This document shows, one piece after another, positions 4,471-39,773 of a stretch of 42,291 nucleotides of DNA (its first letter is position 1; every line of letters starts with the position of its first letter). Position numbers and translations under genes: made by a program. Under the pieces are notes generated by a model. It was not told where the DNA came from and searched no databases. It was given only the letters and a program-made list of their open reading frames with translations. The DNA comes from a virus, in the IMG/VR virus record IMGVR_UViG_3300033153_001990, positions 2,346-44,636 of that record; one strand, 5' to 3'.

Positions 4471-4479
4471 TATTACACA
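4471..4479 (-). promoter_or_regulatory. Late promoter-like motif P9 (variant)
   Basis: The minus strand reads TTGTGTAATATAAT, the shared late motif with one extra A and a perfect TATAAT. It lies just after the stop of the 314-aa gene and upstream of the small peptide and tape measure. It is the most divergent of nine copies. Confidence 0.5.
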
Positions 4480-4489
4480 ATTATATGTA

Positions 4490-5434
4490 TTACACTTCTT
4501 TTTCTACCTTTTTAGTTCTAGATTTAGTTGTCTTTAGATCCTCTTCCTTCGTTTTAGCGCTTTTTGTAGCAGTAATAATGGGATTTCCATCATCATCCAA
4601 GAAGGGTTTTCGCTCTGCAAGAGATGCTACTACCCAATTCTCGTCACCATCCTCATCAGTTATTTTGATAACCTCCTCGCCATCTCGATTGCAGAGAAAC
4701 ATCTGCGATTTATCTTTATTCTTTTTTGCCTCCTCAGTACGATATCCAACAAACCGACCTTCTTCATTGATAAGTTTGCCATCTTCATCAACCAAGTGAC
4801 CATCTTCATCAACCAAATCCAAGTCATCATTTACAAAATTAAATTCTTTTAGGAATTTATTCTCTTGTAGTTTGTTATCATATTCTGGATCTAATCCATA
4901 AAGTATACTGGCAAGTTCTGCCGAGGCTTCTACCACCCAAGGTTGGGTAGCAGACTCATCATAATCATCCTGGGTTTGAAAGTATGGTTGCTTTGTATTT
5001 GGATTAAGCATACATAAACGAACCAATTCTGCGAATCTGGCATTATCCGCCTGACCTTCTGCACTATTTTGATCTAAAGAATTTTTCTCTGCAATCAAAG
5101 TTCTAAACTCTACTCTAAGTCGCCTCAATTCCAAGGCCTTATCTCTCGCTTCTGTAAGTTTAATACCACCCTTGAGTAAAATTTCCTCTAGTTGACCAAT
5201 TCTCTCTATATACTCATCATGCTTTCTCTGTTTGACATCATTCCAAATATCCTGTTCAACCATATAATCCGACAACTTCTGTCGTAATGGAGCACCAGAA
5301 TCCAATGCTTGTCTAAAACTTTTGTTATATTCTATTTGAGAATCTCTATAATCTTGAGATGTTGGGGTTTTAAGCATAACAGAAACTTCTTTTCCGTCAT
5401 TGTCAACACTTTTGATAACTTTGTTCTTTTCCAT
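4490..5434 (-). CDS. 314-aa acidic tail-module protein, unknown function
   Basis: I do not recognise this family. The protein is helical and charged in its first 180 residues (KQRKHDEYIERIGQLEEIL). Around residues 205-230 it has a tandem acidic octapeptide-like repeat (LVDEDGHL, VDEDGKL, INEEGRF), with further DEDGDENW and DDDGNP turns later that resemble Ca-binding loops. The C-terminus is very Lys-rich (TKEEDLKTTKSRTKKVEK). ATG at 5434 follows a good GGAGAATAATT site. It is the last gene of the tail tube transcript, immediately before the tape measure. In other phages this slot holds tail assembly chaperones, so a chaperone or tape-measure-wrapping role is an inference from position only. 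Confidence 0.8.
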   Translation of the reverse strand: MEKNKVIKSVDNDGKEVSVMLKTPTSQDYRDSQIEYNKSFRQALDSGAPLRQKLSDYMVEQDIWNDVKQRKHDEYIERIGQLEEILLKGGIKLTEARDKALELRRLRVEFRTLIAEKNSLDQNSAEGQADNARFAELVRLCMLNPNTKQPYFQTQDDYDESATQPWVVEASAELASILYGLDPEYDNKLQENKFLKEFNFVNDDLDLVDEDGHLVDEDGKLINEEGRFVGYRTEEAKKNKDKSQMFLCNRDGEEVIKITDEDGDENWVVASLAERKPFLDDDGNPIITATKSAKTKEEDLKTTKSRTKKVEKEV

Positions 5435-5436
5435 AA

Positions 5437-5823
5437 TTATTCTCCTTCTTTTTTAGTCTTAACTGACAAATGCACCTTTGCATTTTTGCCTTTAGAGTTT
5501 ATTTCATAAGATGTGAATTCAGCTTCCAATATTCTTATTTGAGTATTTCCATTATCTAATATCTTGTCACGAGTTTTCTCGTAACATTCTTTTAAATATT
5601 TCTGCTCATCACTTAATTCCTCTCCATATTGATTATGCCCCCATAAAAAACCTAAGTTTTTCTCTATAGCATCCAAAGATCCAATCATAGTAGTTTGCAT
5701 TGACTTTTTGCAACTTTTAAACAAAGAGTCTCTGCTTATTTCTTTTGTTTTCTCCTCTCTCATTTTTTCAAAATTTACTGTTTTTTGTAAAAAATCAGTA
5801 TATTGTTTGTCTTGATCTTTCAT
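5437..5823 (-). CDS. 128-aa tail-module protein, unknown function
   Basis: This is a small Lys/Glu-rich protein, mostly helical, beginning MKDQDKQYTDFLQKTVNFEK and ending in a strand-rich part plus a KTKKEGE tail. No motif identifies it. It starts three bases after the stop of the 349-aa gene (TAGGACATG, the stop region doubling as ribosome site) and ends two bases before the next ATG, so the three genes look translationally coupled. The slot between tail tube and tape measure suggests a tail assembly chaperone, by position only. I saw no obvious slippery site for the classical chaperone frameshift. Confidence 0.78.
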   Translation of the reverse strand: MKDQDKQYTDFLQKTVNFEKMREEKTKEISRDSLFKSCKKSMQTTMIGSLDAIEKNLGFLWGHNQYGEELSDEQKYLKECYEKTRDKILDNGNTQIRILEAEFTSYEINSKGKNAKVHLSVKTKKEGE

Positions 5824-5826
5824 GTC

Positions 5827-6876
5827 CTACCGTCCCTTGAGTGATTGTATACCAGCGTTGGTTGCACTAATGGCCCTTTCTTGCTCAACATCTGGCAAAT
5901 GTTTAAAATGTATATCTTTTTCTGTTTGAGCATTTAGAAACTCTTTCCTTTCTTGTATAATTCTTTTTGTTCCAGTTGAATTCATATCGTAAATATTTTT
6001 AGTTTCTTCGTCCGACCTAGACATTATATAAATTTCTTGAGAATTTGCTATTTTTTCGTTGGACAACAAATCTTCCGACTCTTTCTGCTTTCTGTCCTCT
6101 TCATATTTTCTTTTTTGCAGTACAAACCAACCATCTAAACAGTCATCATCTTCTATTATTTTATCTGCTGGACGATCTGTACTTTCATAAACATTGTCAT
6201 ACATTTGGGAATATGACACTAACGACAACTGATTTTTGTCTAAAAAACAAGAGGGCTTGTCAAAAACATCGGCACGCTTTTTTGAACTATTCCACATAGA
6301 CCTCCAAGAATCTATTCTCGCAACTTTTCTAAAATCTCCAGGGGTTATTTCTTTGTCTGAATAAAACTCTAACATTGACGATATGCTGTATTTTGTAAAA
6401 TGAAAGTCAGAGCCATCTAAATTTTTTGTTGTCTTAGATAATATCCAAGACTTTCTGGCAAAATTAGCAACACCGGCACAAGTGAGATGGTCAAACTGAA
6501 CTTTCTTCTGCCTCAACTTTACAATATTCCTTTCCATTCTTCTTATGGATGCTTTGATTGTTTTTAATTCTTTTGGTCTAAAAAACGCCTTGAAAGCTGC
6601 AACCTTGTGATCTTCTATTTGATCTTGAATTTCATCTGCCTCTCTGTCATCAAACGGAGTCCACAAATTGTTATTGACTAAAACTTCCTTTATTTCCCTG
6701 TCTATGTAAACACCATCAAAGTACGCTTTTTCATAAGCCTCTTCGTAAATATCAAAAGACTCTTCCAATATATCAGCACTGGGCTCATATATAAATAAAA
6801 CAAGATCGCCTAATTTTAATCTTAGACGACCCTGTATTATTCTATTTAAAATTCTTTCATAATATATATCGTCCAA
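5827..6876 (-). CDS. 349-aa tail-module protein with TTG start
   Basis: The family is not recognised. The start is TTG at 6876: the frame is closed by a TAG two codons upstream, no ATG lies nearby, and AAGGA sits nine bases before it. The N-terminal 60 residues are compact and hydrophobic (LKLGDLVLFIYEPSADILEE). A basic helix follows at about 100-130 (IKASIRRMERNIVKLRQKK), then a Cys/Phe/Trp-containing segment (HLTCAGVANFARKSWIL), and an acidic-basic helical C-terminus. It follows the tail tube gene after about 25 bases, in the same transcript. Likely a tail assembly protein by position. It is too long for a classical small chaperone. Confidence 0.8.
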   Translation of the reverse strand: MDDIYYERILNRIIQGRLRLKLGDLVLFIYEPSADILEESFDIYEEAYEKAYFDGVYIDREIKEVLVNNNLWTPFDDREADEIQDQIEDHKVAAFKAFFRPKELKTIKASIRRMERNIVKLRQKKVQFDHLTCAGVANFARKSWILSKTTKNLDGSDFHFTKYSISSMLEFYSDKEITPGDFRKVARIDSWRSMWNSSKKRADVFDKPSCFLDKNQLSLVSYSQMYDNVYESTDRPADKIIEDDDCLDGWFVLQKRKYEEDRKQKESEDLLSNEKIANSQEIYIMSRSDEETKNIYDMNSTGTKRIIQERKEFLNAQTEKDIHFKHLPDVEQERAISATNAGIQSLKGR

Positions 6877-6900
6877 TTCCTAAAGTCCTTATTATGATTC

Positions 6901-7923: not shown

Positions 7924-7970
7924 TATAGATTCTCCTTTGATATTTTAATTTTTCGTAAGGAACACAATGA

Positions 7971-7978
7971 TATACACA
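7971..7978 (-). promoter_or_regulatory. Late promoter-like motif P8
   Basis: The minus strand reads TTTTTTGTGTATATCATT, 48 bases before the tail tube ATG and directly downstream of the previous gene's stop. It has no TTGACA-like box at -35. Confidence 0.65.
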
Positions 7979-7986
7979 AAAAATGA

Positions 7987-10077: not shown

Positions 10078-10086
10078 TTAAAAGTC

Positions 10087-10323
10087 CTATGCAATAGTAT
10101 CACCACTATAGTAACGAGGATCATCATATCTTTCATCTAAATTTCCATTTATTGTAGCAATGGGCTGATCAATAAAGGCTGGAGATAGTGGAACTGGGTC
10201 CAAAGTATGATTAGCATCCAGCAAACTAGATGAGTCTAAACCCCTTGCTCCTCCAACACCAGTAACAGCACGACCGCCATTTGGTTGAGCATTGCCACTA
10301 ATAATCTTTTGCACAACGGCCAT
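10087..10323 (-). CDS. 78-aa Gly/Asp-rich protein, unknown
   Basis: A small protein, MAVVQKIISGNAQPNGGRAV, with low complexity, several Gly-Gly and Asp-Pro turns and no predicted helix beyond the first ten residues. It has a strong AGGAGAAAATATA site before ATG 10323 and lies in the connector operon with short gaps on both sides, which argues that it is real. It may be a minor virion or linker protein. No homolog is recognised. Confidence 0.7.
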   Translation of the reverse strand: MAVVQKIISGNAQPNGGRAVTGVGGARGLDSSSLLDANHTLDPVPLSPAFIDQPIATINGNLDERYDDPRYYSGDTIA

Positions 10324-10349
10324 TATATTTTCTCCTAATATTTTTTATG

Positions 10350-10862: not shown

Positions 10863-10871
10863 ATCATCACC

Positions 10872-11198: not shown

Positions 11199-11201
11199 AT
11201 A

Positions 11202-11447: not shown

Positions 11448-11453
11448 TTATAT

Positions 11454-14159: not shown

Positions 14160-14214
14160 TTTAAAACCTTTTAAGTTTATCTGCTTAATAACAAATGTAA
14201 ATATTCAATAAGTA

Positions 14215-14222
14215 TATACACA
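14215..14222 (-). promoter_or_regulatory. Late promoter-like motif P7
   Basis: The minus strand reads TTGTGTGTATATACTT (here with an additional TG), 56 bases before the 901-aa fibre ATG. It also marks the left edge of the GC-rich cassette. Confidence 0.62.
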
Positions 14223-18571: not shown

Positions 18572-18579
18572 TATACACA
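18572..18579 (-). promoter_or_regulatory. Late promoter-like motif P6
   Basis: The minus strand reads AAAATGTGTATAGTTTTT, 59 bases before ATG 18513. It lies just after the end of the 61-aa gene and marks the right edge of the GC-rich cassette. Confidence 0.65.
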
Positions 18580-25161: not shown

Positions 25162-25213
25162 ATATAATTTCTCCGCTTTTTTTAAGAGGAAACGATTTGT
25201 AAAATCTAAATAA

Positions 25214-25221
25214 TATACACA
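25214..25221 (-). promoter_or_regulatory. Late promoter-like motif P5
   Basis: The minus strand reads TTTTTTGTGTATATTATTTA, 53 bases before ATG 25161, directly after the stop of the 950-aa gene. Confidence 0.65.
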
Positions 25222-25228
25222 AAAAATT

Positions 25229-28081: not shown

Positions 28082-28121
28082 AAAATTCCTCAATTTTGTC
28101 TACAAGGTATGCATAATTAAT

Positions 28122-28129
28122 TATACACA
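28122..28129 (-). promoter_or_regulatory. Late promoter-like motif P4
   Basis: The minus strand reads TTGTGTATAATTAATTAT with an exact TATAAT, 41 bases before ATG 28081 and directly behind the capsid terminator. Confidence 0.68.
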
Positions 28130-28135
28130 ATTACA

Positions 28136-28173
28136 ACAAAAAAGGTCGCCTCTTTTACAAGACGACCTTCTTT
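28136..28173 (-). terminator. Rho-independent terminator after the capsid gene
   Basis: On the minus strand AAGGTCG pairs with CGACCTT, and inside it TCTT pairs with AAGA around a GTAA loop, leaving a two-base GG bulge. A run of six T follows. It ends the protease-scaffold, decoration and capsid transcript 20-50 bases after the capsid stop. Confidence 0.88.
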
Positions 28174-28192
28174 TATGATTATAAAATCTTTC

Positions 28193-29194
28193 TTAGAAAG
28201 ATCCAGCAATAACTCTGCGGTTATCCAGAACACCAAAACCAAGTTCTGCCCAACCGTAGTAACCTTGACGTTGATGACGATGCAATGCTTCGTCCTCAAA
28301 GATTTCAACAGCCTTCTTGACAGGCATGACGAAACTGTCGTTAGCGGATTGGTCCAAACCAATCACCAATTCCACATCGCTGCCCTCAATCGAGCCACCG
28401 AGATCGCTGGTGAAGTAAGTTTGATACTCTTGACCATCGCCAAGCTCAAACAAGTCGTGCAGGTTAACACCAAACACACGACTCATAGGACCACCGTCGT
28501 CCGACGAGGTGTAGATCTCACGACGAGAAACTTCGTCAAGCTGATCAACACCCCAATTTCTCATGTCTTCGATAGCTTCGACCGATGTGTAAAGATCTGT
28601 CAAGCGACCAGGAGCGGTAGCGCTGTTACCACCGCCATTACGACGCATAACAGTCTTCATCAGACTGACAAGACGCTTGGTAAACTGTCCAGCACCAGCA
28701 TCGCCATCATAAACCAAGATATTACGATCAACAGCAGCAGCCAAAAGTGTGTGCCAACCGTCGTCGTTAATCTTCTTCACGAAGGACGATTCCAGAACTT
28801 GCATAGCACGACCGACAACATTCCAGTTAGCTTCACGAGCATAACGGAGCAGGAAGTCGATAGAACTTGTGATACCATAGCAATTGATCATGACGTAATC
28901 ACCTTCAACGTGACGCTCAGGAATGCGACCGTTACCAGGATTCGTAAATGCTACATGATCAATCTCTGTACCCGGAGCAAGAAGATCCAATGGAAATTCT
29001 GGAGATGCTCCTGGCTCAAGAGGCATAGCCTCATAAATACCACCAACGATATCGCCAAACAAAACACCCTTACGAAGAGGAGTTTCGAGAGCCTTGGCGA
29101 TCTCACGTTGAGCTTCAATTGCGATTGCTTTATCTGAATCGCCAGAACGTTTTAGCAATTCGATAAACTCAGGTGTAGGTCTTTCTTTGGACAT
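28193..29194 (-). CDS. Major capsid protein (HK97 fold likely)
   Basis: The 333-aa protein has a charged helical N-arm (MSKERPTPEFIELLKRSGDS and a 20-residue Ala/Lys helix), followed by PLRKGVLFGDIVGGIYEAMP and an extended E-loop-like region. A spine-helix-like segment lies near residues 125-170 (ITSSIDFLLRYAREANWNVV, FVKKINDDGWHTLLAAAVD) and a Gly-rich loop at about 190. The C-terminal beta strands are typical of the P-domain and A-domain of HK97-like capsids. It lies after the protease-scaffold and decoration genes and before a terminator, the place of a capsid gene. It has an AAGGAGA ribosome site. It forms the icosahedral shell and would be cut by the protease if the N-arm is removed. Confidence 0.88.
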   Translation of the reverse strand: MSKERPTPEFIELLKRSGDSDKAIAIEAQREIAKALETPLRKGVLFGDIVGGIYEAMPLEPGASPEFPLDLLAPGTEIDHVAFTNPGNGRIPERHVEGDYVMINCYGITSSIDFLLRYAREANWNVVGRAMQVLESSFVKKINDDGWHTLLAAAVDRNILVYDGDAGAGQFTKRLVSLMKTVMRRNGGGNSATAPGRLTDLYTSVEAIEDMRNWGVDQLDEVSRREIYTSSDDGGPMSRVFGVNLHDLFELGDGQEYQTYFTSDLGGSIEGSDVELVIGLDQSANDSFVMPVKKAVEIFEDEALHRHQRQGYYGWAELGFGVLDNRRVIAGSF

Positions 29195-29222
29195 TTATAT
29201 TCTCCTTTTATTCTATTTTAGA

Positions 29223-29714
29223 TTAAAGATTGTTGTTAGGCAGGTCGATGTAAACTTTAGCGTAACCATTTTGGTCCACATCACTCAAGAATCTTCCGCA
29301 AACTCTTGTGGAGCCATCAGCATCAGCGTCATCGTTAACGATGTTGCTTGTGGCCAAATTTCCACTGTGTCCCAGGTATGCCAAATCGCCCGCATTGGCA
29401 GCAGTGCCTTCCAAAGAATTTGTAACAACCCAACCCTTTGTCAAGAGGGTAACTTTGCCACCCTTTTGCACTTCATCTTTGTGTTGATTCAGGTGTTGAC
29501 GAGTAAGGTCAATATCAACCATATCGTTAACCAACAACCCCATAGGAACCACACCAGATGCGTCAGCTGCATATGTAACAACAGCATTACCATTGTCCAT
29601 AGATGCACCAGAACCAGCAGTGCTCAAGGAAACAACGCCACCACGAGTAGCAGCTTCATTCATGAAGAATGAAATGTCTGTTTGTAGAGTAGATCTGTCT
29701 TGTTTAAGAGCCAT
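29223..29714 (-). CDS. Probable capsid decoration protein
   Basis: The 163-aa protein is Gly/Ala/Asp-rich and mostly strand (GGVVSLSTAGSGASMDNGNA, KVTLLTKGWVVTNSLEG, YAKVYIDLPNN). Its size and position, between scaffold and capsid genes, are those of trimeric head stabilising proteins such as lambda gpD. It has a strong AAGGAGATTTAATA site and lies 29 bases before the capsid ATG. No direct sequence match is claimed, so the alternative is another capsid-associated protein. Confidence 0.65.
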   Translation of the reverse strand: MALKQDRSTLQTDISFFMNEAATRGGVVSLSTAGSGASMDNGNAVVTYAADASGVVPMGLLVNDMVDIDLTRQHLNQHKDEVQKGGKVTLLTKGWVVTNSLEGTAANAGDLAYLGHSGNLATSNIVNDDADADGSTRVCGRFLSDVDQNGYAKVYIDLPNNNL

Positions 29715-29752
29715 TATTAAATCTCCTTCATCTATTGATTATTATTTGAGAA

Positions 29753-30400
29753 CTAATCTTCTTTTGAATATTTAAGAACTGAACCAAGCCATTCACTTGC
29801 AACAGAGCGGAGATTTTCGACAGGATCTTCTTCTCCAACTGCTTCAGCAATAGCAACTTCAGAAGTTTCTTCCACAGATTCCAGCACTTCTTCGCTCGCT
29901 TCGGCAGAGTCAACCTCTTCTTCTTGCTCAGAAGCCTTTTCTTTCATCCCCTCTTCTTTTTCTTCCTTCTTACCCTTTTTACCATAAAGAGCAACAATCT
30001 TATCGAAAGTTTCATCATCGACACTTTCAAATTGCTCTAAAGCAGCAGCAGCTTCTTCGTCTTCCATGCCAGCATCAAGCAAGGATGCCTTTCTCTTCAG
30101 CATAGCTTCTTTCTTCTTCATATCTTTAAGTTCGTCATCCTTCTTCTTCATTTCTTCATCTTTACCAGCAAGAGCCTCTTCAGCCTGCTTCAAAGACTCA
30201 GAAAGAGTTTCACATGCAGAAGTTTGCTCATCGATTTTAGCAGACTGCTCTGCAATTGTTGCCTCCAGGTCTTGAATTTTTGTTTCAAATTCAGCCTGTT
30301 GCTCTGCAACAACCTTCTCTTTAAGAGCTTCATTGGCTGCCTTAGCTTCTGCCAATTCTGCCCGCAGATCTTCAATCTGCTTATCATGAGTATCAGACAT
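29753..30400 (-). CDS. Nested in-frame scaffold protein
   Basis: An ATG at 30400 (residue 276 of the protease-scaffold gene) is preceded by AAAAAGGAGATTAGA, the strongest ribosome-site form used in this phage and identical in core to those of the capsid and decoration genes. The predicted product starts MSDTHDKQIEDLRAELAEAK and is the 215-aa coiled-coil and acidic tail alone. The family precedent is lambda Nu3 within gene C and UL26.5 within UL26, where free scaffold is made in excess from an internal start. It supplies scaffold without the protease domain for shell assembly and is later removed. Confidence 0.75.
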   Translation of the reverse strand: MSDTHDKQIEDLRAELAEAKAANEALKEKVVAEQQAEFETKIQDLEATIAEQSAKIDEQTSACETLSESLKQAEEALAGKDEEMKKKDDELKDMKKKEAMLKRKASLLDAGMEDEEAAAALEQFESVDDETFDKIVALYGKKGKKEEKEEGMKEKASEQEEEVDSAEASEEVLESVEETSEVAIAEAVGEEDPVENLRSVASEWLGSVLKYSKED

Positions 30401-31225
30401 TCTAATCTCCTTTTTCTCATTAAAAGTAGTTAAAGTTTCAGCTTTAGATTCATCAAAGAAATCATTATTGTTTGTGTCTAAGATTATACTTCTGGGATTT
30501 GCAGGTTTACTTACTAATCCCTTACCAGAAAACGATAAATCCCTTAGTAACCTTCCGATTCTATAGTTTGAATACTTACCATCCCCACCATAAGATCTTA
30601 AATGTTTTGTTAAAAATGCTGTAGCCTCATCTCTTTTTAAAACTTTTAATTCTCCACTATTTTCGTCTGCTAGAGCATAATCAAAGTTTGGAAAAAGACA
30701 CTCCATGCTAACAAACCATTTATTTTCTTCGATCTCCTGCACGATATTTTGTATTCTAGCTTTACGATCTGGATCAGACCATTCAGTGTAAATCACAGCA
30801 GAGGTAAGTATATTGAATTGATTAGGCAAATTTTCAAAATCGTTGATAGTATTACCATCAAAGTCAACAACTTCATTGGCTGTTATATGTCCAATGATAT
30901 CTTCTTCTTTGTGCATAAAATTAAACGGTTTATCTTCCGGTGTATTTCTAGCATCCCACAATTCTTTTGGGTCAAAAACATCATCATTTTTATTCCAGCC
31001 AGTGCTAACCAAAATAGACTTCATATAATACAAATCAAATTGGTCTTTGTTCTCGGCCAAGGCAATCTCGCCATCTCCAGAACTACTTGCTAGTATTTTA
31101 TGCAGAGCATCAACCTGACTTTCTGTTGGCTGAAAGGGTTCTGCTAATGCGCAACAAGCAATGGTGTTATTATTGAGAATAACATCTTGCAAACCATCAC
31201 TTATTTCTGATTGATATATTTTCAT
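29753..31225 (-). CDS. Prohead protease fused to scaffold
   Basis: ATG at 31225 (MKIYQSEISDGLQDVILNNN) has an ACGGAGGTATTTC site. Residues 1-250 look like a prohead protease: an N-terminal domain, then FMHKEEDIIGHI with candidate catalytic His105, and WFVSMECLFPN with Ser173, the His/Ser order of herpesvirus assemblin and T4 gp21-like proteases. Residues about 276-440 are a long coiled coil (DKQIEDLRAELAEAKAANE), and the last 60 residues are very acidic with EEEVDSAEASEEV runs, as in scaffold proteins. This layout of protease then scaffold matches lambda C/Nu3 and herpes UL26. A second ribosome site lies inside the gene. Confidence 0.82.
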   Translation of the reverse strand: MKIYQSEISDGLQDVILNNNTIACCALAEPFQPTESQVDALHKILASSSGDGEIALAENKDQFDLYYMKSILVSTGWNKNDDVFDPKELWDARNTPEDKPFNFMHKEEDIIGHITANEVVDFDGNTINDFENLPNQFNILTSAVIYTEWSDPDRKARIQNIVQEIEENKWFVSMECLFPNFDYALADENSGELKVLKRDEATAFLTKHLRSYGGDGKYSNYRIGRLLRDLSFSGKGLVSKPANPRSIILDTNNNDFFDESKAETLTTFNEKKEIRMSDTHDKQIEDLRAELAEAKAANEALKEKVVAEQQAEFETKIQDLEATIAEQSAKIDEQTSACETLSESLKQAEEALAGKDEEMKKKDDELKDMKKKEAMLKRKASLLDAGMEDEEAAAALEQFESVDDETFDKIVALYGKKGKKEEKEEGMKEKASEQEEEVDSAEASEEVLESVEETSEVAIAEAVGEEDPVENLRSVASEWLGSVLKYSKED

Positions 31226-31248
31226 ACTGAAATACCTCCGTAAATCAT

Positions 31249-31256
31249 AATACACA
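31249..31256 (-). promoter_or_regulatory. Late promoter-like motif P3 (variant)
   Basis: The minus strand reads TTTTTTGTGTATTATGATT, with one change (TATTAT for TATAAT), 24 bases before ATG 31225. This is the shortest leader of the set. Confidence 0.6.
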
Positions 31257-31279
31257 AAAAACAAGCAACTAGGTTTATT

Positions 31280-33388
31280 TTATGAAAAACAGAACATTTC
31301 AGCAAAGGCAGAAGCATAGATATGCCTCAACTCAGAGGTATTTGGTTGCCTTCTTCTGACAGTATTAAAGGTGGTAGATTTATTATCAACCAATTTTTCA
31401 AAGGCTTTGCTAGGTTTGGTATTGGATTTTAGAATCTCTTGAATAATTTCTGGAGTAACCTCAATCATAGGTTCCATACCAGTAAATATACAAAGTTTTA
31501 AATACTCTAATTCTTGCATTTCAGACTTGCTAAGAGCCCTTGCGTTCTTTTTACCGAAATGCTTACAAACCATCGGAGTCATGATATCCGATATTTTTTC
31601 TTGTGCTTCAATGCCCCAAAGGGTGGCAGATGTAGGTTCTGAACTTCTTGGCAAAACCCTTCTCTGTTTTCTCGGACCTTGATCCTTAGATAATGGAGGT
31701 CTACCAGACTCTTGGACATTTTGATCGTCGTCTTTTATATTCCCTGGATTGTTGTCATTTTCTTTAATTTCCTCTTTTTCCTCGTAAGGAAGTCCAATCT
31801 TTTCAAAATACTCCTCAGTATCAAGAACATCTTTAGTAATGCCAAGTTTAGCCATATCCTCCTTATGATGAGGATTGTAGTATGGTCCAGCCTTCTTTGG
31901 AGAGTTTGCGTCATTATTTCTATCCCTTTCCTCTCTCCTCACTCTAACCCTTTCTATATTTGGAATTTCTCTAAACCTTTCCAGTATCGTCTCATCAGAA
32001 AGAATTCCACGATCAACAAGGTCTAACAGAAGTTTCTTTTGTGCTGCCTCATCAGACAAAACAATGGAGTCAAAATGAATTTGAGCAGGAAGACGGAAAC
32101 CCATAGTTTTTCTTACATATTCTATTTCCTGCATCCAGAACTGAGTTAATACCTGCCGTCCATACTCAAGTCTCTCAATAAGTGTTTTTAAAGAGACATA
32201 GTTATTTGTATAACCACCACTTGCTCCAGAGGCACCAGTAAGAGTGGGAGGAATTCCCAATCCCGCATAAATGCTAGTAAGAACGGGTTGATATTTTTCA
32301 GAACCCAAGAACTTATAGGCTTGAGAGTTGCTTTCTGTAAATTTAAGTTCTGGACCCCAAACCAAATCCATTGTCCCACCGCCAACATTGCTGGCCAGAA
32401 TATCTCTAATCTTTTCTAGACCTGCCTTGGTTGGAATAATCTTATTCTCAATGTCACCGACTGTCCAAAGTCTAACCTGACTAATCGTGCCATCCAAAGC
32501 TGCCAGATCTGCCAACTTCATTTTCTCCAACATCATGATATCGTCAAGAATAGCATAAATCATTGGATTTGCCCAAAGTAGCCAATCATCCTTTTTATAG
32601 TGATAAAAGAATGTTGTATCGTTTAGAGGTATTTTCCTGTCGCCACTTTTAATTCTTGTTTGAATGTCAGATGGAAGTGTTTTAAATATGTTTTCATTTT
32701 CTGTCGAGGTTTTCAACAGTGATTGATATGTGTATTTTGATATATTTAGATAAAACTTAGGCTTACCTACAACCATCATGCCAGGATCTACAACATCAAC
32801 AGCTACAGGATTTAGAAAATCATATATCCAAGGTATTTCTCTTCTCGGAGTTTTTGACTTCTCTATCTTGACATCGGCACCGGCAGCTCGCCTGAGTTCA
32901 GCCTCTTTGTTTTTGTCTATTTTAGCGGTTCTTCTTTGAACTACAACATTGCCACATCTATAAAGATAGTTTAAGAACCTTTCAGAACGATCAGCGCCAT
33001 TAATTTGAGAAAACCATTTTCTATAGAACTTTTCAATGGTTTTATTTGGATGGACTAGAACAAGTCCCTGACTGGCAAAATCACTCATCAAATCAATTAC
33101 ATTACGAATGATTCCAACTCTGTCATATGCGCTCATACACATAGACATAATCTTTTTTTGCTTGGAAGGAACTGTCTCGCCAGGACGGAATGATTCATAA
33201 TCACCGCGATAGAAAGGAGGGCGAACAGACCTATTAGGCTCGATATCTATATAGGTTTGCCGTCTATATGAAGAACTGTGAGCTTGGGACTTATAAACTG
33301 CCCCATTATACCCCTCAAGATCAGTATGATCGTAAACTTTTATTTTTTCAGAATCGCTGGCCCACGATTGATAAAGTGGCTCTGACAT
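31280..33388 (-). CDS. Portal protein
   Basis: The 702-aa protein sits between the large terminase and the protease-scaffold gene. It shows portal-like features: a helical clip or stem region after residue 60, the segment YDRVGIIRNVIDLMSDFASQ, and FYRKWFSQINGADRSERFLN. A basic central part is followed by GGGTMDLVWGPELKFTE and GASGASGGYTNNYVSLKTLI, typical of phage portal crown and wing regions. The C-terminus is long, charged and helical. It forms the dodecameric DNA entry channel and docks the terminase. It has its own promoter (P2) and a hairpin leader. Identification rests on position and characteristic segments. Confidence 0.85.
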   Translation of the reverse strand: MSEPLYQSWASDSEKIKVYDHTDLEGYNGAVYKSQAHSSSYRRQTYIDIEPNRSVRPPFYRGDYESFRPGETVPSKQKKIMSMCMSAYDRVGIIRNVIDLMSDFASQGLVLVHPNKTIEKFYRKWFSQINGADRSERFLNYLYRCGNVVVQRRTAKIDKNKEAELRRAAGADVKIEKSKTPRREIPWIYDFLNPVAVDVVDPGMMVVGKPKFYLNISKYTYQSLLKTSTENENIFKTLPSDIQTRIKSGDRKIPLNDTTFFYHYKKDDWLLWANPMIYAILDDIMMLEKMKLADLAALDGTISQVRLWTVGDIENKIIPTKAGLEKIRDILASNVGGGTMDLVWGPELKFTESNSQAYKFLGSEKYQPVLTSIYAGLGIPPTLTGASGASGGYTNNYVSLKTLIERLEYGRQVLTQFWMQEIEYVRKTMGFRLPAQIHFDSIVLSDEAAQKKLLLDLVDRGILSDETILERFREIPNIERVRVRREERDRNNDANSPKKAGPYYNPHHKEDMAKLGITKDVLDTEEYFEKIGLPYEEKEEIKENDNNPGNIKDDDQNVQESGRPPLSKDQGPRKQRRVLPRSSEPTSATLWGIEAQEKISDIMTPMVCKHFGKKNARALSKSEMQELEYLKLCIFTGMEPMIEVTPEIIQEILKSNTKPSKAFEKLVDNKSTTFNTVRRRQPNTSELRHIYASAFAEMFCFS

Positions 33389-33405
33389 TTAGACTGTTTT
33401 CCTTT

Positions 33406-33440
33406 CAATACAATTGTCAATACTATTAACAGTTGTATTG
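33406..33440 (-). other. 12-bp stem-loop in the portal mRNA leader
   Basis: CAATACAATTGT at 33406-33417 and ACAGTTGTATTG at 33429-33440 form a 12-pair stem (one G-U) around an 11-base loop. It starts one base after motif P2, so a transcript from P2 would begin with or within this stem, next to the ribosome site. It could protect the mRNA 5' end or affect portal translation (inference). Confidence 0.65.
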
Positions 33441-33441
33441 A

Positions 33442-33449
33442 TATACACA
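33442..33449 (-). promoter_or_regulatory. Late promoter-like motif P2
   Basis: The minus strand reads GATTGTGTATATCAAT, 54 bases before portal ATG 33388, just after the terminase stop. Confidence 0.65.
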
Positions 33450-33451
33450 AT

Positions 33452-35437
33452 CTAATACAGATTCTGAGTTTTTTCTACAAACCAGGATGGACCATTATAA
33501 AGTTTACCGCCACCAACACCAAAAGAAGGTTGACCATTAGCAAAACCGCCAAAAGCCCCGAATTCGAGAGTTGTTTTTTCGGTATTTAACTCTCTAGCAG
33601 ACATGTTGGCCATAATAAGAGATGAGTATCTATCTTTTCTTAATCTGCTTTTTCTTCCTGCTCCAGTCTTAACCTCTGGAGTATCCCATCTTTCTCGCCC
33701 CGTAGAAGTTTGAGTCATTACAATCATAGATAACTCATCCTTGAGTTCTTCTATCTCCATAACACAATCTTCTAATGTATCATATTTTCTTCCAACAGAT
33801 TTATCCACTTCTAGGGCTATACCCAAACTAGCAGAATCAAAATAAGGAAATAAAACAACCTTATCTTCAAAATCTTTTCTTAACCCATGATTTGCCTCTG
33901 CCAACCATTCATACTTTGCAAATTGACACATTCTCAAAATATGTAAACCTGGATAATCATCCGTATCCTTTGGTTTTTCTTCTACTATTGGCCAAATCGC
34001 AACTTCTCCCTCTGGAATTTTATCCTTATCTTTTAAAGCTTCCATAACCGCGATTCCACCACCCTGAGCATCCATAGCTATTTCAGCACATGGAAATACT
34101 TTCATTAACTGTCTAATCTTTTTTGCGCAGTAAGAATAAAAATCATCCTCATCCACCAACTTAGATTTAAGCATTTCTTTGTGTGACTTTCTAGTTGTTG
34201 TCCAGCAGTGAACAATTTTTCTATGATCACTATTCACCTCAAGCACAACAATGCTAAAGTTATCAACTTCCGATGCCGGATCAACCCCAAAAACATACTT
34301 TTTATTTGAGTCTCCTTTTAAAGAGGCTTCAAACCAAACTTCTCCAGACGGAAGATTCACAGGTTTATTAGGAGAAGTCGTACAACCCTCTATTAAACTT
34401 CTTTTGAAAAACCCCTGACTGTCAGTGGTAAAGACGGCACCATACTCCATATTATATATGCCAGAATGCACAGTCGCTTTTGCTCTAGATATTTGACCAG
34501 AATCCATAAATCCATCTGGCAATTTATCAACAGGAATTCTTATTACAGAATATTCAGTCCAATCAAAGTTGCCAGGAACAGAACCGCCAAAAACCTCCTC
34601 TAATTTTCTAACATCACCACCACTATTTACTATCTTGTGATATCTTTTCCAATATTCAGAAAAATGATTAAAATCATAATAAGCAGTTCCAGACAAGATG
34701 ATCTGGTTGGATTTATCTAAACTTTCATTTTTGTTTTTCTCTTTGCTTATCGGTATGCCAAGTTCTTGTGCCTTCTTTTCTTTTGCTGCCTGCTTTACCT
34801 TTTCAATAGGAGATGCTGCAACAGCAGCAAAACCAGCAACAACATTCTCAAAAATGTCACGAGGTATTGAGGCGAACTCATCCGCAATAATATCATTAGC
34901 ACGCTGACCACGAATCTTACTACCATCACCCAAAGGGAGACATGTAATAGTGCTTTGCCCAATATGCATAACACACCTATCAACATCCCTTCTAGGCCCA
35001 CTATTTGTAGCACACAAATCACGAAGGACAGGAGCATTTTTCCAAATTGTATCCATATATTCAAAAAGGACTTTAGATTGCCTAAATGCCGCACCGACTA
35101 TGATAACCTTTCTGCGTGGAATAAATAAAGCTCTGAGCAGAGGATAAACAGAAAGAATAAAAGATTTACCCATACCACGACTACCTACCAGCATGGGAAA
35201 CTTTCTATTCCACATTTCATAAAGAAGCAAAGACTGAAATGGAGATAATTCAATATTTAGTATATATTTACATGCAAAAGAAAAATACTCTGGCCGCATC
35301 ATTAACCATGCTAATCTTTTTAACAGAGCTTCATTGTCTTGATCCTGCATTACAAAATCCATAGGATTAAATAACGTAGATTCGTCAACGTTTATGCCTA
35401 ACCAAGCATCTTCTAATATCTTTTGATTATGTTTCAT
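33452..35437 (-). CDS. terL: Large terminase subunit
   Basis: The 661-aa protein has a Walker A GSRGMGKS at residues 85-92 and a Walker B IIADEF at 183-188. It also has the C-terminal nuclease pattern of terminases: an Asp in VFGVDPASEVDN, a second in IAMDAQGGGIAV, and later acidic residues near TGRERWDTPE. ATG at 35437 overlaps the ClpP-like stop as ATGA, so the two are translationally coupled. It is the motor and nuclease that packages genome into the prohead with the small subunit. It ends the P1 transcript. The length is normal to slightly long. Confidence 0.95.
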   Translation of the reverse strand: MKHNQKILEDAWLGINVDESTLFNPMDFVMQDQDNEALLKRLAWLMMRPEYFSFACKYILNIELSPFQSLLLYEMWNRKFPMLVGSRGMGKSFILSVYPLLRALFIPRRKVIIVGAAFRQSKVLFEYMDTIWKNAPVLRDLCATNSGPRRDVDRCVMHIGQSTITCLPLGDGSKIRGQRANDIIADEFASIPRDIFENVVAGFAAVAASPIEKVKQAAKEKKAQELGIPISKEKNKNESLDKSNQIILSGTAYYDFNHFSEYWKRYHKIVNSGGDVRKLEEVFGGSVPGNFDWTEYSVIRIPVDKLPDGFMDSGQISRAKATVHSGIYNMEYGAVFTTDSQGFFKRSLIEGCTTSPNKPVNLPSGEVWFEASLKGDSNKKYVFGVDPASEVDNFSIVVLEVNSDHRKIVHCWTTTRKSHKEMLKSKLVDEDDFYSYCAKKIRQLMKVFPCAEIAMDAQGGGIAVMEALKDKDKIPEGEVAIWPIVEEKPKDTDDYPGLHILRMCQFAKYEWLAEANHGLRKDFEDKVVLFPYFDSASLGIALEVDKSVGRKYDTLEDCVMEIEELKDELSMIVMTQTSTGRERWDTPEVKTGAGRKSRLRKDRYSSLIMANMSARELNTEKTTLEFGAFGGFANGQPSFGVGGGKLYNGPSWFVEKTQNLY

Positions 35438-36066
35438 ACTTTCAACGATCTAGAAAAAATATTATCTATGAATCCATACTCTAGTGCAGTTTGCGAATCC
35501 ATATACCAATCTCCATCCTTCATTTTTCTTTTTATATAAGATTTTACTTTTGACAGCGAATAGTCTCTATCTCTAAAGAACTCTCCTTTTATACATCTTT
35601 CAGCATAGATATTTATCATATTGTTCATATTGTTTTTATCTATAACAGCATAGTTTTGAGCATTTAGGTACTCGCCCGTTAAACTAGTAGAACCATAGTG
35701 ACACATAAAAACGCAGTTAGGCATAAGGATTCTTTTGTCAGCGGCTTGAATGATTATCGTGCCCATAGAACATAATTGACCATACCCTATCATATTTATT
35801 TTACATTTAGACATCTTTATCATGTCGTAAATGCCCATTCCAGAATCCCAACACCCTCCTTGCGTTTGTATATAAATTGTAATAGGGTTATCATTTTGGC
35901 ACTCTAGGATCTTTATATTTTTTACAAAATTTTGTAACATCCTATAATCCACACCGGGATTTTCCGAAACTTCCTCCTTTTCAGTTAAATATATAACCCT
36001 ATTACTAACGTCTAATCCATTAGTATGTATATCAGAAATCCAATCTGTCGTATCCCTTTTTGTCAT
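35434..36066 (-). CDS. ClpP-like serine protease
   Basis: I start at ATG 36066 (MTKRDTTDWISDIHTNG) because GAGGAATCTG precedes it. The open frame is longer but lacks a site. The 210-aa protein matches the ClpP fold: INIYIQTQGG-type strand, then GQLCSMGT with Ser100, PNCVFMCHYG with His123, and GDWYMDSQTALEYGFID with Asp186, the order and spacing of the catalytic triad. ClpP-family proteins serve as prohead proteases in many phages. Here, however, a separate protease-scaffold exists beyond the portal, and this gene lies before the large terminase. It may cut a packaging or host protein instead. Overlaps the large terminase by ATGA. Confidence 0.88.
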   Translation of the reverse strand: MTKRDTTDWISDIHTNGLDVSNRVIYLTEKEEVSENPGVDYRMLQNFVKNIKILECQNDNPITIYIQTQGGCWDSGMGIYDMIKMSKCKINMIGYGQLCSMGTIIIQAADKRILMPNCVFMCHYGSTSLTGEYLNAQNYAVIDKNNMNNMINIYAERCIKGEFFRDRDYSLSKVKSYIKRKMKDGDWYMDSQTALEYGFIDNIFSRSLKV

Positions 36067-36547
36067 CAGATTCCTCATTAAAAAGTTCTGCCAATCTTTT
36101 AAAGATGCTATTGCAAACAAGAAAAGCATTTTGCTTGTTGCCACAAAAAAGTATTTTTGTTTCATACCATATTTGAAATTCCATCAAACACTTTAACAAA
36201 TACTTTCCAGTAACTTTTACTTTACTCCTAGATTTGTTTGGAACCCTAGAGCCCTCTGGATACTTTAATAAATGCTCCATATCAAATTCCAAAATCAAAA
36301 ATGAAAAAGGAAAACTTTTCATTCTTTCCATTTCGTTTTGAAACGGTCCCTTTTTCCTTCCTAAATTCATTGCCAACTCAGAGACAGAGGCTTTTCTTTC
36401 TATACAAACAACCTCTTCGTACCCCTTGATTGTATAGTCACCAGTATTCATAGTGGCAACTTCCATGCCCTCACATCTGTCATAAGGACTAAAAAACCAC
36501 CCATCTTGTTCTCTGGTGTCTTGAATGACTGTATATTTATTCGTCAT
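36032..36547 (-). CDS. ERCC4/XPF-type nuclease domain protein
   Basis: I start at ATG 36547 (MTNKYTVIQDTREQDG). The frame continues upstream only into the previous gene. The 171-aa protein shows the ERCC4 nuclease motifs: DTREQ near residue 10, NTGDYTI about residue 36, and IERKASVSEL about 50, matching the GDxnERK active site. A basic middle segment (SRSKVKVTGKYLLKCL) follows. The family cuts branched or flapped DNA in archaea and eukaryotes and occurs in some phages. It may process DNA for packaging or recombination. It overlaps the preceding 104-aa gene by 11 bases and the ClpP-like gene by 35. Confidence 0.82.
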   Translation of the reverse strand: MTNKYTVIQDTREQDGWFFSPYDRCEGMEVATMNTGDYTIKGYEEVVCIERKASVSELAMNLGRKKGPFQNEMERMKSFPFSFLILEFDMEHLLKYPEGSRVPNKSRSKVKVTGKYLLKCLMEFQIWYETKILFCGNKQNAFLVCNSIFKRLAELFNEESDDKKGYDRLDF

Positions 36548-36851
36548 CGCCCCCTTCTTCTTGCTTATCAACAACATCTTCAGTTTCAGGCTTGCTCTTG
36601 AATTCAAACCAATCAGCTTTAATAGTTTTTTCTACAGGTTTAACTTTCGCGGGTTTGTTTGACTTTATAAAAATATTATTCTGATCTCTTGAAATAGTCA
36701 CATCAAGATTTCTTTTACAGTGAACATATGCCATGCTATATGCTTCGTGCCACTCCTTATCGGATTCATCAAAACCCTGAAGAACTGTACTTCCGCCATC
36801 CTCTAGACTTTTAGCCTTTTCTACAATTTGATCGCAATACTTATCTCTCAT
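36537..36851 (-). CDS. 104-aa charged protein, unknown
   Basis: The protein is MRDKYCDQIVEKAKSLEDGG and continues helical and charged, with a Lys/Pro-rich middle (SNKPAKVKPVEKTIKADWF) and an acidic end (EDVVDKQEEGGDDE). It has no recognised domain. Its ATG overlaps the HNH stop as ATGA, and its own stop overlaps the ERCC4 start, so it is tightly packed in the terminase operon. A small accessory protein to the nearby nucleases is possible, by context only. Confidence 0.72.
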   Translation of the reverse strand: MRDKYCDQIVEKAKSLEDGGSTVLQGFDESDKEWHEAYSMAYVHCKRNLDVTISRDQNNIFIKSNKPAKVKPVEKTIKADWFEFKSKPETEDVVDKQEEGGDDE

Positions 36852-37123
36852 TTTTTATTTCTCCTAACTTTCTCTGTCAAATATGTTATATAGTGAGATT
36901 CTTTTCCGGTTACTTCCTTGTGGCAGTCTCTACAAAGAGAAATTCCATTATCTACATCATATCGAAGACTACTAGCCGAACTCCATTTTATTATATGATG
37001 CACGTTCAACCAAATCCCCTTGCCTTTTCTATTACACATTTGACAGGTAAAATTATCACGTTTTAACACAGCATTTCGGAAGTTCTTGTAAACTGGACAC
37101 TCGTAGTTTCTTTTTCTTGACAT
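36848..37123 (-). CDS. HNH endonuclease
   Basis: The 91-aa protein has the HNH motif WLNVHHIIKWS plus GISLCRDCHKEVTGKESHY, and a zinc-binding set of Cys: the CQMC pair and the CRDC pair. Small HNH proteins next to terminase genes are a repeated feature of HK97-like phages, where they help the terminase nick cos DNA. The ATG at 37123 lies inside the gmd reading frame (a 68-base overlap), with GGTGGATT upstream. It is followed by the 104-aa gene with ATGA overlap. It could be a packaging nickase or a homing endonuclease. Confidence 0.88.
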   Translation of the reverse strand: MSRKRNYECPVYKNFRNAVLKRDNFTCQMCNRKGKGIWLNVHHIIKWSSASSLRYDVDNGISLCRDCHKEVTGKESHYITYLTEKVRRNKK

Positions 37124-38225
37124 CGTAATCCACCATTCTATTTACTAAAGCTTCAAAACTGACATCTCTTCTCCAACCCAACTTCTCCTCTGCTTTACGA
37201 GGAATTCCCAATAAATAATCTACTTCTGCGGGTCTATAAAATTCTGGATCAACCACAACATATTGTGTCCAATCATCAATTCCAATGCGATAAAACGCAA
37301 CATTTAGAAAATGACGAACACTATAAGTTTCGCCGGTGGCAACCACATAATCATCTGGTGTTTCTTGCTGTAACATAAGCCACATGACATTAACATAATC
37401 TTCTGCGTGACCCCAATCTCGTTTTGCATCTAGATTGCCTAAACGCAACTTAGGAAATTTAGATCCAAAAACCCAAGAATCGTTATCGCCATATGGTTTA
37501 TTGTCAGGATTCTTTCTAACATGACAAATCATATCATCGTCAAATTGAAGATCGACAGCTCCATTTTCTTGAGCCCAATTCTTAAACTCTCCAATCCACT
37601 TGGTAATCTTGCGTGTTACGAAATGCTCGCCACGACGCTCGCTTTCGTGATTAAACAAAATACCACAACTACCATGAATTCCATAACTATCTCTATAATT
37701 TCGCACCAAATGATGTGCCGCTAGTTTTGCGATAGCATATGGACTTTGGGGCATAAAAGCTGTATTTTCATCTTGGTACTTAAAGCCCCACACAAGATTC
37801 ATAGGATCATCATCCATTTCTGTAAAGTTTTTACCAAACATTTCACTACTGCTCGCTTGGTAAAATCGAATACTATCCTTTCTTGGAGAATATCGTATTG
37901 CCTCCAAGATATTCAAAACACCCCCAGCAGTCACATCCCATGTTAAACTTGGCTGCTTAAAACTCGTACCCACATGAGATTGTGCTGCTAAATTGTAAAC
38001 TTCGTCGGGTTCAAACTCTTCAATAATTTTACTGACATTAAATCCATCCGTAATATCACCCTCGACTATAGTGATTTCTGGCAGGATATGATCAATTCTT
38101 TCAAGAGTGCTGACGCTCACCCGACGAGTAACTCCAACTACTTTATAACCCTTTTTCAAAAGTAGTTCTGCTAAATAACTTCCGTCCTGTCCTGTTATGC
38201 CAAAAATGATGGCGGTTTTATTCAT
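37056..38225 (-). CDS. gmd: GDP-mannose 4,6-dehydratase
   Basis: The 389-aa protein is a short-chain dehydrogenase with NADP-binding GITGQDG at residues 9-15, the SSSEMFG active-site segment at 125-131 and Tyr163-x-x-x-Lys167 (YAIAK). It turns GDP-mannose into GDP-4-keto-6-deoxymannose, the step toward GDP-fucose, GDP-rhamnose or related sugars. The C-terminus after MVDYDV (about 25 residues) looks like an extension running into the HNH frame. It lies between the small terminase and HNH in a packaging operon, an unusual place for a sugar gene. It may serve virion or host-surface glycosylation (inference). Confidence 0.94.
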   Translation of the reverse strand: MNKTAIIFGITGQDGSYLAELLLKKGYKVVGVTRRVSVSTLERIDHILPEITIVEGDITDGFNVSKIIEEFEPDEVYNLAAQSHVGTSFKQPSLTWDVTAGGVLNILEAIRYSPRKDSIRFYQASSSEMFGKNFTEMDDDPMNLVWGFKYQDENTAFMPQSPYAIAKLAAHHLVRNYRDSYGIHGSCGILFNHESERRGEHFVTRKITKWIGEFKNWAQENGAVDLQFDDDMICHVRKNPDNKPYGDNDSWVFGSKFPKLRLGNLDAKRDWGHAEDYVNVMWLMLQQETPDDYVVATGETYSVRHFLNVAFYRIGIDDWTQYVVVDPEFYRPAEVDYLLGIPRKAEEKLGWRRDVSFEALVNRMVDYDVKKKKLRVSSLQELPKCCVKT

Positions 38226-39024
38226 CTATATCTTCCTGTTTTAAAGTTTCCGGTGTGAGAAATGGTTGATCCACCATTCCATCTTCATAAGTATAGTAGT
38301 CTGATAGACGTTCTTTCTCTTTCTCCGCTGCCAAACGCATTTTCTCCATGTCAAGTCCAATCTGAACTCGAAAGTCAGAATCGGTGGCAATTTGCTTGAC
38401 GAGTGAGGCAAAGGTTTGCTTGCTGTCCTCGATAGCCTTGATACGTTGTTCACGGGTGCCCTTTAGATCTTTCAGCATCGTAGCCTTCCTTGCCTGAAGA
38501 TCCTTGTAGTCCTTGCTCAATGTTTCCTGTGAGGCCCGCAAAACTGCTACCTGCCGCTCCAACTGCATAATATAATCTATGTCCCTTTGATCCTTGTCCA
38601 CCGCCTTTTCTGCCTGTACCATTCGCTCGCACGTTACAATCTGCATTTGATTTTCCTGCTGCGACTTCAAGATCCTATTCATTAATATTTCGAGTTTGAT
38701 GGTGTCAATGATTTGCATTTCCTCGGTGTGAAAAACATCATCTTTAAACTGACTCCACATCTTTTTAAAATGAAATTCAAAAAGCCCCAATTCTTCTTCT
38801 GTAAATTGATTTTTTAACTCTTTGTAATATGGTTTTGCCACAAGCTCATTTGCAACAGCCGCCTCTTTTTTCTGCTTCAAAGAGAATCCTATTCTTTTTC
38901 CAATCCATTCTTTGATGCTGAGGGGATCGCGGTCGAGATGGGAAGCTATATCGCCTGGAGAAAGAACCTCGGCATTCGCCTCGATAAATTCCATTTCCTC
39001 TTTGGAAAACCTTCCCTTTTTCAT
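38218..39024 (-). CDS. Probable small terminase subunit
   Basis: The 268-aa protein has an N-terminal helix-turn-helix-like region (SKEEMEFIEANAEVLSPGDI, then HLDRDPLSIKEWIGKRIGFS) and a long helical middle and C-terminal part (QMQIVTCERMVQAEKAVDK onward) likely to oligomerise. The helical oligomeriser plus DNA-binding start fits a small terminase, which recognises the packaging site and feeds the large subunit. It is first among the packaging genes after the sigma factor. It overlaps the gmd start by eight bases. The N-terminus resembles the 62-aa HTH protein encoded divergently at 39790. Confidence 0.7.
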   Translation of the reverse strand: MKKGRFSKEEMEFIEANAEVLSPGDIASHLDRDPLSIKEWIGKRIGFSLKQKKEAAVANELVAKPYYKELKNQFTEEELGLFEFHFKKMWSQFKDDVFHTEEMQIIDTIKLEILMNRILKSQQENQMQIVTCERMVQAEKAVDKDQRDIDYIMQLERQVAVLRASQETLSKDYKDLQARKATMLKDLKGTREQRIKAIEDSKQTFASLVKQIATDSDFRVQIGLDMEKMRLAAEKEKERLSDYYTYEDGMVDQPFLTPETLKQEDIDE

Positions 39025-39066
39025 AAGTCAAAACCTTTACATTTTCTGGGCAGGAAAGAAGGGGCT

Positions 39067-39582
39067 TTATTCGTCCATCTCTCCGTTGATTATTTTTTCT
39101 ATGGTTTGTATGATTGTTAGACGGCGGGGCTTTGATAGTGGGGCATTTGCTTGTAATTTAAGGTAGTCACCCCTCAGATGAGGGGGCAACTTGCGATCTA
39201 TAAGGTCTAACACCTCTTTTAAATATGCCTCATCCCCAATTTCATTTATTTTGTATATAGTATATATCGAGTCTAAAGAAACGGGCTCTAGAAGGGACTT
39301 TTTACGTTCTTGTATTTTTTGAGCATTTGTGCCATAATCCATTCTGTAGTAATTATCTCTTTTGAATGTTTTTAGGCGATTGTTTATGTGTGTGAACATA
39401 AAGTTTTCAAGGGGGCGAGATGGGTCATAATTCTTCAACCCTGCAATACCAATTAAAAATGCCTCCTGTTCAATGTCCTCAACCTCATATCCAGCAAAGA
39501 CAAATTTAGGGGCTAGTCGTTTAGATATTTTTGTTATGGTATCTACAACCTGTTGTTCATTCAGTCCCTTGGGAATCTCCAT
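39067..39582 (-). CDS. Phage sigma factor, sigma-70 region 2 type
   Basis: I start at ATG 39582 (MEIPKGLNEQQVVDTITKIS) because AAGGAGAACG precedes it. The 171-aa protein has a sigma-70 region 2 core at about residues 30-80: GYEVEDIEQEAFLIGIAGLK followed by NYDPSRPLENFMFTHINNRL and a basic KTFKRDNYYR. The C-terminal LPPHLRGDYLKLQAN and RRLTIIQTIEKII may be a reduced region 4. Size and content are like T4 gp55, the late sigma factor that reads a -10 only promoter. It is the second gene in the first late transcript and is the best candidate to recognise the TGTGTATA motif. Host RNA polymerase core would be its partner. Confidence 0.82.
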   Translation of the reverse strand: MEIPKGLNEQQVVDTITKISKRLAPKFVFAGYEVEDIEQEAFLIGIAGLKNYDPSRPLENFMFTHINNRLKTFKRDNYYRMDYGTNAQKIQERKKSLLEPVSLDSIYTIYKINEIGDEAYLKEVLDLIDRKLPPHLRGDYLKLQANAPLSKPRRLTIIQTIEKIINGEMDE

Positions 39583-39721
39583 CGTTCTCCTTTTCAAAAA
39601 GTTCGTCAAGAAAAATCAATGGGGGATCTTCTATTGTTAACTCGGCAGCAATTGCTTTTTGGAGCTCTTCGGCGGCTTTTGTTGACAAATTAGAATCTAT
39701 TGGTTGGATTTTCTTGCTCAT
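39557..39721 (-). CDS. 54-aa protein ahead of the sigma gene
   Basis: ATG at 39721 (MSKKIQPIDSNLSTKAAEEL) has a GGGAGAAACAATAAA site. The longer upstream frame has no ribosome site and would overlap the promoter. The protein is polar and helical with an acidic C-terminus (EKENDGDSQGTE). It has no domain I recognise. It overlaps the sigma factor start by 26 bases and is the first gene of the packaging and late transcript. It might modulate the sigma factor, since the two are coupled, but no sequence feature shows it. Confidence 0.68.
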   Translation of the reverse strand: MSKKIQPIDSNLSTKAAEELQKAIAAELTIEDPPLIFLDELFEKENDGDSQGTE

Positions 39722-39765
39722 TTTATTGTTTCTCCCTATTATTATTATAGATACTATAGTTAAAG

Positions 39766-39773
39766 TATACACA
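39766..39773 (-). promoter_or_regulatory. Late promoter-like motif P1
   Basis: The minus strand reads AAAATGTGTATACTTTAA, 45 bases before ATG 39721. It heads the transcript that contains the sigma factor itself, so it could be autoregulated. It lies in the 68-base divergent gap beside the HTH gene. Confidence 0.62.

Follow-up and report, generated by a model that had tools for sequence, protein, structure and literature searches.

A candidate sigma factor and single-element late promoter in a large group of uncultured marine phages

The DNA studied here is a window of 42,291 bases from a 44,636-base virus record (IMG/VR IMGVR_UViG_3300033153_001990), whose left 39.8 kb form a leftward virion block. 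An initial annotation had proposed that nine minus-strand copies of a short motif, TGTGTATA, or close variants of it act as phage-specific late promoters carrying a -10-type element only. Our analysis supports this proposal: TGTGTATA is very probably a single -10-type late-promoter element which, together with a sigma factor encoded in the first late unit, would constitute a new sigma/late-promoter pair comparable in kind to those of phiEco32 and T4. This reading is based on the placement of the motif in gaps between genes, its conservation at orthologous sites, a predicted transcript start 7–8 nt downstream, the absence of a -35 element, the segregation from early sigma70 promoters and the position of the sigma gene. 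The earlier reading was incomplete in that it missed the sigma gene, the early promoters and a composite promoter at the sigma operon. No earlier report of TGTGTATA as a phage promoter was found in the open-access literature, subscription papers being outside the search.

The window contains seven exact copies of TGTGTATA, all on the minus strand (7971, 14215, 18572, 25214, 28122, 33442 and 39766). The two other proposed sites are variants, reading TGTGTATT at 31249 and GTGTAATA at 4471, the latter corresponding to TGTGTAAT from 4472, and both TGTGTATT and TGTGTAAT are found again in relatives, at sites that are orthologous or equivalent. Shuffled sequences gave an expectation of 1.7 exact copies and one shuffle out of 100 also reached seven; taken alone, the count is only moderately unusual. 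Allowing one mismatch brought no excess (47 copies against 43 expected), and therefore only the near-exact form of the motif is informative. For these reasons it is the placement of the motif, and not its number, which constitutes the evidence. With genes hand-trimmed to Shine-Dalgarno-supported starts, gaps represent 889 of the 39,779 bases of the late region (2.2%), and they hold all seven exact copies (p = 2.8e-12), so that the concern raised with the proposal, that the motif might be equally common inside genes, is clearly not borne out. TGTGTATA, TGTGTATT (31249) or TGTGTAAT (4472) was present in every one of the nine gaps of at least 50 nt, while three shorter gaps (38–44 nt) were devoid of the motif. 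The distance from the end of the motif to the next Shine-Dalgarno/ATG is 23–58 nt, which corrects the 24–68 bases initially given. The sites had also been described as lying just behind a stop codon; this is the case for eight of them (2–63 nt past the stop of the preceding gene) but not for the site at 39766, located at the divergent early/late boundary. As initially noted, no TTGACA box was seen upstream of the motif sites of the window.

Read along the late region, the first element (39766..39773, minus strand as for all those that follow) precedes the sigma operon and occupies the same place in relatives. The next one, at 33442..33449 between the terminase and portal genes, is likewise conserved. 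It is followed by the TGTGTATT variant at 31249..31256, ahead of a 490-aa gene (start 31225), which is kept as TTTTTTGTGTATTAT in most relatives. Exact motifs are then found at 28122..28129 before a 950-aa gene (start 28081), at 25214..25221 before a 957-aa gene (start 25161), where two relatives have the motif or a one-base variant at the same place, at 18572..18579 before genes for 108 and 1317 aa, at 14215..14222 before a 901-aa gene (start 14159), and at 7971..7978 before a 340-aa gene (start 7923). The last element, the variant GTGTAATA at 4471..4478, is a probable promoter of the tape-measure unit; it lies 42 nt upstream of a small open reading frame (ORF) and about 160 nt upstream of the tape-measure gene, and at the portal gene relatives have its TGTGTAAT form in place of TGTGTATA. 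A sequence scan also indicated a terminator-like hairpin (28138..28173, minus strand) ending just upstream of the 28122 promoter, the two forming a terminator-promoter pair; similar GGGGCGGCTTTTTT runs occur just before motifs in relatives.

Conservation was studied in 103 loci, some of them overlapping, that were retrieved through their terminase or sigma. In these loci TGTGTATA was found 142 times along the direction of the genes and twice in the opposite one, compared with 16 and 15 for the reversed motif used as control. An unseeded ranking of all 8-mers by their occurrence upstream of genes versus inside genes, over four sequences (the window and three relatives), placed TGTGTATA first. 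This ranking and the alignment of orthologous leaders were used instead of an unconstrained expectation-maximisation motif search, which drifted to the Shine-Dalgarno sequence. The motif is fixed ahead of the same genes in relatives while its flanks drift. At the terminase-portal junction it is retained in nearly all relatives, even with a 24-nt shift from the stop codon, with TGTGTAAT as a recurrent substitute. The gene next to portal carries a TTTTTTGTGTATTAT-like element, equivalent to the 31249 variant, 23–50 nt before its start codon in about 60 relatives, and the 340-aa gene is preceded at the same place by exact TGTGTATA in six of seven close relatives and by TGTGTATT in the seventh.

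The shape of the promoter was derived from 71 non-redundant sites, excluding those of the portal, next-gene and composite sigma classes. Because the sites were selected for the motif, the core columns are fixed by this selection and only the flanks count as evidence. In these, AT-rich tracts occur around -24, -12 and -2 relative to the motif, and position +15 is a purine and never a C. The consensus is T-rich-TGTGTATA, with variants TGTGTATT and TGTGTAAT. No -35 element was detected in the 71 sites nor in a set of 118 non-redundant sites, in which TTGACA-like sequences numbered 12 versus 8 in the control. A pyrimidine-purine (YR) step was present at +14/+15 in 64 of the 118 sites versus about 28 in other columns (p = 8e-13), these sites too having been chosen by motif, Shine-Dalgarno and ATG with relatedness among loci only partly removed. 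On the basis of this step, the transcript is predicted to start about 7–8 nt after the last base of the motif; a start at 8 nt would put the motif at -15 to -8.

The first late unit, behind the motif copy at 39766, contains an ORF (39067..39582, minus strand, ATG at 39582) encoding a 171-aa phage sigma factor with a sigma70 region 2. This assignment is supported by a Pfam match above cut-off (PF04542), by phrog_1740 and by fold matches. All 15 sigma relatives analyzed matched phrog_1740 (best E 5e-8; E 3e-4 for the window protein), and none of the 15 matched phrog_234, the T4 gp55 family. In an AlphaFold model built from 15 relatives (mean predicted local distance difference test score 76), residues 2–80 superpose on region 2 of SigE, RpoS, sigma28 and others (best Z 8.6 over 73 residues), although Foldseek alone returned no match below E 0.001 with this model; a separate three-helix domain is predicted at residues 118–165. 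By analogy with known phage sigma factors, this protein would be the one that recognizes TGTGTATA. The sigma gene is preceded and overlapped by a small gene of 54 aa (39557..39721, minus strand) without family match. Nearly all relatives checked have a small gene of 45–105 aa upstream of sigma, with a common TKSTAxLxxEIxxxLxxxIPDP core, and a role as co-activator or inhibitor of sigma is possible. In the window this gene has FLDELF, similar to the gp55 tail; the idea of a clamp-binding tail was abandoned because relatives do not keep this sequence. The gene downstream of sigma (38218-39024) weakly matches phrog_323, a D5-like transcriptional regulator (E 0.0045).

The genomes of three relatives, G001 (148 kb), G002 (139 kb) and G003 (95 kb), comprise a late arm and a counter-oriented arm, which in G001 encodes ribonucleotide reductase, helicase and polymerase. 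When sense-strand gaps of the window and these three sequences were counted, the late arm held 23 copies of TGTGTATA and 8 sigma70-like promoters, versus 6 and 67, respectively, for the early arm (p = 3e-11 for segregation), few of the early sigma70-like sites being in G003. In the window, the sigma70-promoter scan covered 24,000-42,291 and found only two promoters with all 12 of 12 consensus bases, perfect TTGACA-16-TATAAT sequences at 40324..40351 and 40783..40810, both on the plus strand, directed toward the early genes and away from the late block. Two separate ORFs of one relative (L115:16754-18331 and L116:1362-2540) match different parts of phrog_405, a DNA polymerase family, and therefore the polymerase gene looks split in this relative.

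The sigma operon differs from the other late units by the presence of a TATAAT (39744..39749, minus strand), a host sigma70-type -10 sequence, 16 nt after the late element. Among 25 sigma leaders with the exact motif, 14, including that of the window, have TATAAT exactly 24 nt after the motif start, and exact TATAAT was seen at no other offset tested. It was not seen at +24 before the 340-aa gene or the gene next to portal, and it occurred there in 1 of 48 portal leaders. Across 170 distinct motif sites, the spacer between motif and TATAAT was 16 nt in 18 cases and otherwise scattered; distinct sigma-linked cases with this spacer numbered 18 when loci from a collection scan were included, and three others among relatives fit portal leaders by sequence. 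The early promoters of these phages mostly have a spacer of 16 (142 cases) or 17 nt (56 cases), and since the spacing is the same, the late element appears to take the -35 place of a sigma70-type promoter. The sigma operon thus appears to have a composite start-up promoter, TGTGTATA-N16-TATAAT. A collection-wide scan indicated that this arrangement is not diagnostic by itself, because among the matches listed most have no sigma gene nearby, as chance predicts. More distant relatives lack the composite promoter and some have a separate upstream sigma70-like promoter. In one clade (L014, L015, L019, L020 and L166), the sigma leader has GGTGTATAATA with an upstream TGTGCATA in place of the composite promoter, which is possibly a shift in start-up design.

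We propose the following scheme. Host sigma70 polymerase would first transcribe the divergent early arm from TTGACA-N16/17-TATAAT promoters. The first sigma molecules would probably be made by the same polymerase acting at the TATAAT of the sigma operon, 16 nt after the late element standing in the -35 place. Host RNA polymerase carrying the phage sigma (39067-39582) would then bind TGTGTATA and start RNA about 7–8 nt downstream, and the resulting positive loop would drive the sigma operon together with every other late unit. Among the contents of the nine late units would be the sigma gene and those for the portal, major head and tape-measure proteins. Whether the composite promoter is truly read twice, first by the host sigma70, with the element as -35 and TATAAT as -10, and afterwards by the phage sigma, for which the same element would be the -10, we regard as an even question; the two holoenzymes would compete for the same bases, and the early-to-late switch and positive loop would be contained within 30 bp.

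Other explanations of the motif have to be considered. It seems unlikely that it is a host sigma70 extended -10 promoter working with no phage sigma. TGTGTATAAT does resemble TG plus TATAAT in a region that is AT-rich, but the TG spacing is not that of TGnTATAAT, and there is hardly any conservation past TGTGTATA, even at the place of the key T (-7). In addition, the same phages use near-perfect TTGACA-N16-TATAAT promoters for early genes, with the two types segregated by arm, and the gene of a phage sigma stands at the head of the first late unit. The exact 16-nt distance to TATAAT in 14 of 25 sigma leaders, which is the early-promoter spacing, could instead suggest an activator site acting with sigma70 at the -35 place, like the T4 MotA box. 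We consider this quite unlikely, since the sigma operon shows such a middle-promoter geometry whereas the next-to-portal and 340-aa promoters, with no TATAAT at that distance, do not (no search for a MotA homologue was made). At the gene next to portal, the start codon follows the motif by only 23–50 nt, too short a distance for the motif to serve as -35, as a -10 at 24 nt and a leader cannot fit; the YR step at +14/15 also sets the start too near for a -35 site. Finally, one copy lies behind a terminator-like hairpin and the gaps are short, as might be expected of an RNA or DNA signal with no role in initiation, for instance a processing site or a part of a terminator. This is very unlikely, as it would leave unexplained the strand bias, the fixed YR distance and the sigma gene at the head of the set.

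Several points weigh against the late-promoter reading itself. A few copies of TGTGTATA lie in early-arm gaps, and the YR signal and logo come from sites selected by motif plus Shine-Dalgarno/ATG whose relatedness was only partly removed. About half of the sigma leaders, mostly from more distant relatives, do not have the exact TGTGTATA, and therefore control of the sigma operon may differ among clades. The C-terminal domain of the modelled sigma could still read upstream DNA, and the link between motif and sigma is drawn from co-occurrence and analogy.

The initial annotation had compared these promoters with those of T4. The T4 element reads TATAAATA, which differs from TGTGTATA. The comparison nevertheless stands in kind, since the T4 late promoter is an 8-bp element located one turn upstream of the start, with AT-rich DNA downstream and activation by a sliding clamp (PMC2988020), and here an 8-bp element precedes the predicted start by about one helical turn, also with AT-rich DNA downstream. 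The sigma region 2 partially matches gp55 with hhalign (41 residues, E 9e-4, probability 23%), but gp55 belongs to phrog_234 and the window sigma to phrog_1740. No gp45-type clamp, DnaN-type clamp or gp33 was found in G001-G003, records which may be incomplete and in which distant forms could escape; as a positive control, the T4 clamp models and the gp33 query did find their targets in T4. A closer analogue is gp36 of phiEco32, whose middle/late promoter, tAATGTAtA, has no -35 and starts 6–8 bp downstream (PMC8948821). Both promoters consist of a single element sharing TGTATA and lack a -35, and both sigma factors fall in phrog_1740 (gp36 match 1.9e-45). In contrast, the first two core bases are TG here versus AA and the tAATGTAtA consensus is not matched, the sigma has 171 aa versus 214 aa for gp36, the phage groups are unrelated, and a composite sigma70/late start-up promoter is present here. 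The pairwise hhalign match to gp36 is weak and not significant (probability 1.2%, E 0.04, 30 residues), and the relation appears to hold at the PHROG level only. In Salmonella phage 7-11, the sigma gp47 feeds its own late promoter in a positive loop while early genes depend on sigma70 (PMC8948821), which resembles the scheme proposed here. However, its late promoter is bipartite, GTAAtg-(16)-aCTA, and read-through from early promoters is thought to supply its first sigma (PMC8948821), versus a single element and a dedicated composite promoter in the window. The pair would thus work like phiEco32/T4 late promoters, but it does not appear to belong to the T4 system.

The virion block encodes the terminase large subunit (33452..35437; phrog_2), the portal protein (31280..33388; phrog_2739), the major head protein (28193..29194; a weak match to the phage G major head protein, with a probable ortholog in a relative matching phrog_2522) and the tape-measure protein, which extends past the window edge (1..4310; phrog_28), all on the minus strand. 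It also encodes a ClpP-like protease, a 1317-aa immunoglobulin-like virion protein and, at 37056-38225, a GDP-mannose 4,6-dehydratase-type gene adjoining a small HNH gene (36848-37123). The portal leader (33389-33441) has three tandem 12-nt units (AATNNNATTNNC) between the promoter and the ribosome site. This pattern is kept in 48 distinct relatives while its bases drift (lag-12 identity 0.51 versus 0.29 expected, uncorrected for relatedness) and is possibly an operator or a translation-control array; a hairpin was rejected because folding was inconsistent between relatives, the signal being the 12-nt repeat. Among 50,697 phage records, no near relative was found by DNA, portal protein or sigma protein, and distant terminase and head-protein similarities were the sole matches. 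In IMG/VR the terminase has at least 599 relatives and the sigma at least 84, and the phage group is large, uncultured and marine. No host is claimed, because a terminase scan of genomes led to two contigs of metagenome-assembled genomes (Gemmataceae and Flavobacteriales) that are unlike each other.

Taken together, these results provide, for a large lineage of marine phages, a late-promoter code along with the sigma that probably goes with it, and transcription units of this lineage may be read straight from metagenomic contigs. Further phage sigma/promoter pairs have been predicted (PMC8948821), and the pair of the window would be of this kind. The start-up problem of sigma genes that drive themselves becomes testable with one short sequence, and the composite promoter may represent a possible route to the first sigma, as opposed to the read-through thought to operate in phage 7-11.

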